Of a DNA stretch of 64,000 nt, positions 57,942 through 58,352 are shown in pieces (positions within the stretch are counted from its first letter, which is position 1; every line of letters starts with the position of its first letter). The translations under genes were made by a program, and so were the position numbers. The notes under the pieces are model-generated. The model saw nothing but the letters and a program-made list of their open reading frames with translations, was not told the DNA's origin and ran no database searches. Source of the DNA: Microbispora hainanensis. GTDB taxonomy: Bacteria; Actinomycetota; Actinomycetes; Streptosporangiales; Streptosporangiaceae. Location: NCBI RefSeq assembly GCF_006874475.1, contig NZ_VIRM01000023.1:1-64000 (forward strand). Reading direction: 5' to 3'.

Positions 57942-58352
57942 ATGTTCAAAGAAGCACTGGCTGCTGCCGTCATGACGGCTTCGGCCCTCGTCGTCCCTGT
58001 CGCGATTCAGACGCAGCCGGCCAACGCCGCCGGCACGACCGAGCAGGTCGTCCGGCCGTCGGTCACGGGGGACTGCCCGGGAGGCAGATGCCGTGACAGG
58101 CACCGCTATCGCCACGAGCACTTCCGCCACCATCGGGACGGCTGGGACGGTCGCGATCGCCCCCGCCGCCACCTCCGGGAGCGACAGCAGCAACAGCAGC
58201 AGCAACAGCAGCAACAGGGGTCGGGCGGTCAGCAGCAACAGCAGCAGCAACAGCAACAGCAACGTGGCCGCGCTCAGCAACAGCAGCAGCAACAACAGCA
58301 GCAGCAGGGGTCCGGCGGTCAGCAACAGCAGCAGCAACAGCAACAGCAGTGA
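57942..58352 (+). CDS. Secreted basic protein with four polyglutamine runs, unknown
   Basis: A 136-aa protein. A Sec signal peptide (ALAAAVMTASALVVPVAIQT) ends near ANAAG. After a short spacer with a Cys pair (GDCPGGRC) comes an Arg/His-rich block (RHRYRHEHFRHHRDGWDGRD). The C-terminal 55 residues are four Gln runs of 11, 11, 11 and 10, separated by GSGG, RGRA and GSGG. GGAGGG lies six bases before the ATG at 57942. No known family. The His/Arg block may bind metal or anionic polymers, and the Gln tails could self-associate; both are inference. Confidence 0.75.
   Translation: MFKEALAAAVMTASALVVPVAIQTQPANAAGTTEQVVRPSVTGDCPGGRCRDRHRYRHEHFRHHRDGWDGRDRPRRHLRERQQQQQQQQQQQGSGGQQQQQQQQQQQRGRAQQQQQQQQQQQGSGGQQQQQQQQQQ
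58185..58349 (+). repeat. CAG/CAA polyglutamine array with 45-bp higher-order period
   Basis: Forty-three CAG or CAA codons occur in four runs. Each run plus its four-residue separator is 45 bp, giving a higher-order tandem. Runs 2 and 4 share sub-patterns of CAG/CAA order and the first and third separators are GSGG, suggesting a 90-bp duplication. On the other strand this reads as Leu runs in a long open frame, which is a shadow. Confidence 0.95.

Follow-up and report, generated by a model that had tools for sequence, protein, structure and literature searches.

A putative exported polyglutamine-tail protein of Microbispora hainanensis and its family of variable-tail relatives

We describe a predicted exported protein of Microbispora hainanensis with four polyglutamine (polyQ) runs in its C-terminal tail, together with its family, which keeps a leader made up of promoter, 5′ region, and signal peptide and varies in head and tail. 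Pfam and NCBIfam gave no name to any member scanned (the window protein and six relatives), and the literature searched, which covered few subscription journals, contained no description of this family. Neither the family nor its apparent tail exchange had a match in these libraries and this literature, and the function that we propose is putative. The window protein would be exported and serve as a structural component at the cell surface or in the extracellular matrix, a reading whose chances we put a little short of even.

The window gene and its 5′ leader

The gene lies on the forward strand at 57942..58352 of the window, the whole 64,000-nucleotide stretch that was analysed, and its translation and relatives predict a 136-residue exported polyglutamine-tail protein, which we call A type. 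Residues 1-30 (MFKEALAAAVMTASALVVPVAIQTQPANAA; 57942..58031) form a signal-peptide-like region, judged by eye from the N-terminus and supported by alignments, with an inferred cleavage site. They are followed by a head aligned with those of relatives (residues 31-50; 58032..58091), which carries CPGGRC with Cys45 and Cys50, and, as read from the translation, by an Arg/His-rich block (residues 51-81; 58092..58184) and the tail Q11-GSGG-Q11-RGRA-Q11-GSGG-Q10 (residues 82-136; 58185..58349), all on the forward strand. A signal peptide, an Arg/His-rich block, four Gln runs of 10-11 residues, and a 45-bp period had been reported in a first-pass annotation, and translation and a repeat scan bore them all out; the runs measure 11, 11, 11, and 10 residues, the tandem repeat has 3.9 copies with 76% matches, and 43 of the 46 Gln residues lie in runs. 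Alternative frames over the Gln repeat are also open, and the frame conserved in relatives is the one encoding 136 residues. Across the 8.7-Mb genome, stretches of eight consecutive CAR codons were confined to this gene, with 15 overlapping matches as against none in the control, and at least one such stretch occurs in 60 of the 394 genomes scanned in the class, so polyQ of this kind is not unique to the window genome.

Pfam searches with the window protein at E values up to 1 returned no match except a weak one to TFIIA (E 0.067, below the cut-off), and the head had no match among PDB sequences at E 0.1. AlphaFold, run with six sequences, gave the window protein a low-confidence model (mean pLDDT 51.7, pTM 0.17) with no confident fold, and a tblastn search of plasmids found no match. 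Judging by their sequences, the neighbouring genes are presumably those for urocanase, amidohydrolase, and Tex.

A promoter-like element, GTGACT-N17-TAGCGT, was recognised by reading the sequence and by upstream alignment at 57813..57841 on the forward strand, and it is presumably a sigma-70-type promoter. It runs into a conserved 5′ leader (57836..57941, forward strand) with a ribosome-binding site GGAGGG at 57930-57935, 6 nt upstream of the ATG. About 100 bp upstream of 19 Microbispora genes of the A type and of the B type described below can be aligned, comprising the promoter-like element in the form GTGAC(T/G)-17-TAGCGT, the leader, and a Shine-Dalgarno sequence, and the promoter-like element is partly conserved in other genera. 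At up to three mismatches, the genome has the leader core TAGCGTGAGAAYSAGGGTCNNGATC at exactly two places, each in front of one of the two family genes, and Rfam gave no match above the gathering score anywhere in the window. Directly upstream of the conserved promoter block, a 14-bp unit, GATGGCGGGGCTCT, is present in five and a half identical copies (57512-57586). Other tandem repeats of the window are a 12-bp unit at 26783-26934 (GCCCACCGTGTT; 12.7 copies, 94% matches) and a 17-bp unit at 61334-61439 (CGGCCCCATGCGTTTCC; 6.2 copies, 96% matches).

Relatives in Microbispora and beyond

Relatives that keep both the signal peptide and the Gln runs were found in 10 of the 15 Microbispora genomes, the window's own included, and polyQ members also occur in four other genera, so that the relatives whose absence would have refuted the first-pass annotation do exist. 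Given these 10 genomes and the conserved promoter and 5′ leader, we take the window gene to be a real gene. Stretches of eight CAR codons are likewise present in 10 of the 15 genomes. An N-terminal profile at E 0.001 had matches in all 15, and the first 81 residues used as a query matched in 15 genomes among 60 relatives. Within the window's own genome, this query found one good paralogue, and a broader profile found two members and one weak match. In a collection of named genomes, 13 loci of the relatives belong to Microbispora, which NCBI places in the Streptosporangiaceae.

Members of the A type, present in eight Microbispora genomes, combine CPGGRC or CPGGEC with a His/Arg block and two to four Gln runs, and the sequence and length of the block differ among species. 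The B type, in 13 genomes, shares the signal and has CPGGRC or CPGGKC followed by a tail of charged RGRFEERGRER-like repeats. Two genomes (G002 and G005) carry divergent polyQ members at a third locus, and these are mutually syntenic. The claim that run length is nearly constant holds inside the window protein but not across Microbispora, where the 34 Gln runs of 10 proteins span 7-16 residues (mean 10.2, SD 1.8). The A gene of the window sits between the genes for amidohydrolase and tex; tblastn did not find it in any of the six corresponding intervals of other Microbispora genomes, so it is dispensable in the genus. With the A gene absent from these six intervals, no tail switch was seen at this locus. 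One species without long Q runs has a 45-residue ORF (L054, G010:C137) that starts with a family-like signal peptide, finishes in Q6-G, and may be what is left of a polyQ member. Five further loci (L053, L055, L057, L058, and L059) belong to a second secreted Microbispora family, whose proteins have a Gly-rich tail and repeats of the kind VLPSCQYVVNGG..VSPSCG, and its resemblance to the polyQ-gene family is limited to the signal peptide.

At E 0.001, the N-terminal profile matched in 75 of 341 genomes and 14 of 68 genera of the Streptosporangiaceae, the weakest matches having little in common beyond the signal peptide, as in the MKKALLTGAL proteins. A class-wide scan at 1e-5, of limited sensitivity as 16 candidates were scored per genome, gave matches in 7 of 394 genomes and 2 of 137 genera, both belonging to the same taxonomic family. 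The member set used here comprises 98 translated proteins from 53 genomes and eight genera. It leaves out L053-L059 (weak Microbispora matches, mostly to the signal peptide only), L030, a stronger match at a contig end (G216:C57), and matches in the taxonomic family weaker than E 1.3e-7; L088 was rejected because its translation is an unrelated protein. Seven of the 98 (L019, L027, L101, L102, L104, L105, and L130) are cut at contig ends or contain masked stretches.

Homopolymer tails, defined by a run of at least eight identical residues after position 30, are present in 37 of the 98 members: 16 with Gln, 13 with Gly, six with Asn, and two with Ser. Among the remaining 61, tails are short or built of charged, His/Trp-rich, or Gly-rich repeats. 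Some of the polyQ members, which span five genera counting Microbispora, consist of a single block of 46-60 Gln. In poly-N members, GGG or GGRG linkers join 5-10 runs, and all 40 runs of the six proteins are 9-11 residues long (SD 0.65); poly-G members often have two blocks, in several cases with an Asn/Thr-rich insert between them. After residue 30, exactly two Cys are found in 74 of the 98 members and none in 10, and the net charge of the 37 homopolymer members is never negative (0 in one and +2 to +10 in the rest). In four genomes, neighbouring members with unlike tails lie within ~2 kb: at G331:C1 (~8.642 Mb), G338:C81 (~142-143 kb), G115:C56 (~146-148 kb), and G169:C1 (~1.755-1.757 Mb). 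These close pairs look as if they were diverged tandem duplicates.

Codon use and tail exchange

The first-pass annotation took the mixture of CAG and CAA codons to show that the Gln runs are not pure slippage products. CAA accounts for 195 of 618 codons (31.6%) in the runs of the 16 polyQ members and for 14 of 348 Gln codons (4.0%) in 33 ORFs of the window, and its share at 55 polyQ loci outside the family is 175 of 558 (31.4%), with 49 of these 55 runs sitting inside open frames 100 or more codons long. Since unrelated loci have an equal share, the mixture does not discriminate, and the CAA excess was dropped as evidence of special selection. This equality sits well with an account that we consider improbable, in which the protein is weakly constrained, its export is of little importance, and the conserved promoter and signal peptide are followed by tails that grew as neutral, tolerated repeats. 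Microsatellite-like growth in 45-bp units of variable number and the lack of the gene at its locus in all six other species checked also favour it. Other tracts argue against it, as they mix codons and yet retain their residues: N runs use AAC 318 and AAT 77 times; G runs GGC 389, GGT 175, GGA 78, and GGG 5 times; and S runs AGC 39, AGT 25, TCC 19, TCG 13, and TCA once. This mixing suggests that residues are retained as codons drift, most clearly for Ser, because the AGY and TCN boxes lie more than one silent step apart. The tight length of the poly-N runs is a further point against neutral expansion, as are the 50 N-terminal codons of the B genes, where 27 of 28 pairs have a lower pN than pS (eight of the 13 B genes used). 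For the same codons of the A genes this holds in 15 of 21 pairs, with a median pN/pS of 0.45 (seven of the eight A genes used), which points to no more than moderate constraint on the A gene.

Evidence on how tails change comes from another genus (g6), in which the family gene of nine genomes adjoins the gene for phosphofructokinase (PFK) and is flanked in eight of them by ThiI on the opposite side, the neighbours having been identified by a Pfam run on one locus, L236. At this one locus the tail is poly-G in three genomes (G325, G019, and G333), poly-N in five (G329, G332, G328, G338, and G331), and poly-Q in one (G335). The poly-G locus L236 and the poly-N locus L241 agree at 86% in the left flank, 78% in the promoter and signal-peptide region, and 89% from position 6978 on, and their tails do not align. 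Counting only well supported branches, the PFK tree requires at least two changes each for poly-G and poly-N and three changes for the three labels, and 83 of 200 label shuffles over its nine rows do as well, so the tails are interspersed and not clustered. The head of G325 is 74-76% identical to the poly-G heads of G019 and G333 and 46-56% identical to the other six, whereas its upstream 160 nt are closer to G329, G332, G328, and G335 (73-74%) than to G019 and G333 (69-70%). Together with the interspersed tails, this contrast fits an exchange of head-tail cassettes behind a fixed leader, and as the segments are short, retained ancestral alleles would also fit.

Extending this pattern, seen in nine genomes of one genus at one locus, we suggest tentatively, and as nearer a third than a half in likelihood, that promoter, leader, and signal peptide stay fixed while recombination swaps Q, N, G, and S tails at a single locus, which would change the polymer displayed and leave expression unchanged. 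That Q, N, and G interchange at one locus suggests that a bulk physical property of the tail matters and not a specific sequence. The same recombination of cassettes within a conserved leader could instead serve a diversifying surface antigen or decoy, with variation useful against phages, grazers, or kin. The repeated changes on the well supported PFK branches, the G325 head nearest the poly-G heads behind an upstream region nearest its poly-N and poly-Q neighbours, and the two to four Q runs among Microbispora all speak for such a role, but the segments are short, the contrasts modest, and shared ancestral alleles or convergence fit them too, and we think this explanation distinctly unlikely.

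A structural role and its rivals

As an exported structural protein, the window protein would leave the cell via Sec, its basic head might bind the anionic wall or pair through its two cysteines, and its tail could cover hyphae or spores with a layer that is hydrated or cohesive. Many tail chemistries, be they Q, N, G, S, or charged repeats, would serve such a layer, and the Q- and N-rich versions may additionally form amyloid-like fibres. The conserved N-terminus, the usual pair of cysteines, the non-negative charge and homopolymer tails, the PFK-linked locus, and the lack of a confident fold speak for this reading; the absence of the A gene from six intervals and the moderate constraint on the A-type N-terminus speak against it. 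Neither a sortase signal (LPXTG or LAXTG, hydrophobic stretch, and basic tail) nor a lipobox was seen by eye, so surface retention is putative; the protein terminates in its last Gln run. Metal binding, which the first-pass annotation had raised, does not suit the family as a whole, since poly-N, poly-G, and poly-S members hold only 0-3 His and a His-based role would not be shared. Cross-linking is another idea for the tails: transglutaminases are known to act on polyQ and are secreted by streptomycetes, so a secreted enzyme might join Gln tails to lysines of the coat. We regard this glutamine-donor role as very improbable, as it is impossible for poly-N, poly-G, and poly-S tails, including those at the orthologous locus in another genus.

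Chaplins and rodlins, the surface amyloid proteins of Streptomyces, resemble the family in being small, exported, and encoded by several genes in mycelial actinomycetes, and possibly in self-assembling at the hyphal surface. Chaplins are hydrophobic, whereas the tail of the window protein is a polar homopolymer, and the chaplin domain PF03777 had no match in the window protein or in six relatives at E 0.01. Chaplin-domain matches are present in all 15 Microbispora genomes, at 5-8 per genome, so a coat of known type is already there, which counts against the structural reading, and a polyQ-tail protein would add to the coat and not replace it. Nearly all of these matches lie in one long open frame of ~430-760 residues (G000:C223:28302-29711 and its equivalents in the other 14 genomes), that is, a multi-chaplin protein. 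Rodlins have been reported as obvious in no group but the streptomycetes (PMC4255298).

A serious, if possible rather than probable, rival to a structural coat is a functional amyloid in which Q (and N) tails nucleate extracellular fibres as chaplins do, with the Arg/His head anchoring the fibres in the wall or on extracellular DNA. At least 30 Q+N within 80 residues, a threshold from work on prion domains, is reached by 21 of the 98 members, and the window protein has up to 43 in such a stretch. The narrow length range of the poly-N runs also favours amyloid, and, according to a review (PMC4606120), the bacterial amyloids known so far are mostly structural and lie outside the cell. Poly-G at the orthologous locus and poly-S or charged tails elsewhere are, however, not classical amyloid cores, and ~10-residue runs with Gly/Arg linkers may limit aggregation, so that we consider the amyloid on the unlikely side. 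A Q/N-rich stretch is also shared with bacterial prion-like domains such as that of Rho of Clostridium botulinum; Rho is a cytoplasmic regulator, whereas the polyQ-tail protein is predicted to be exported and its relatives replace Q/N homopolymers with Gly or Ser.

The PE_PGRS/PPE proteins of mycobacteria offer a further parallel, as they too are a multi-gene actinobacterial family with a conserved export N-terminus and a fast-changing, Gly/Asn-rich low-complexity tail. They differ in having a type VII signal where the polyQ-tail family has an ordinary signal-peptide-like start, and the tails of the latter are true homopolymers whose residue differs between members; no PE or PPE domain of Pfam matched the window protein or six relatives. 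Silk, sericin, and shell-matrix proteins are likewise exported and built of Gly/Ser/Asn/Gln-rich blocks with short linkers, but they have no sequence relation to this family, which is bacterial and measures ~100-190 residues in most homopolymer members.

Long homopolymers have mostly been discussed for eukaryotes and disease, and here a bacterial family carries Q, N, G, and S versions that are predicted to lie outside the cell. With one leader joined to three different polymers at a single locus in close relatives, it amounts to a natural experiment in which the residue of a homopolymer tract is the one thing varied. It also supplies short, genetically encoded building blocks for materials research, and it may reveal a coat component beside the chaplins in sporulating actinomycetes.
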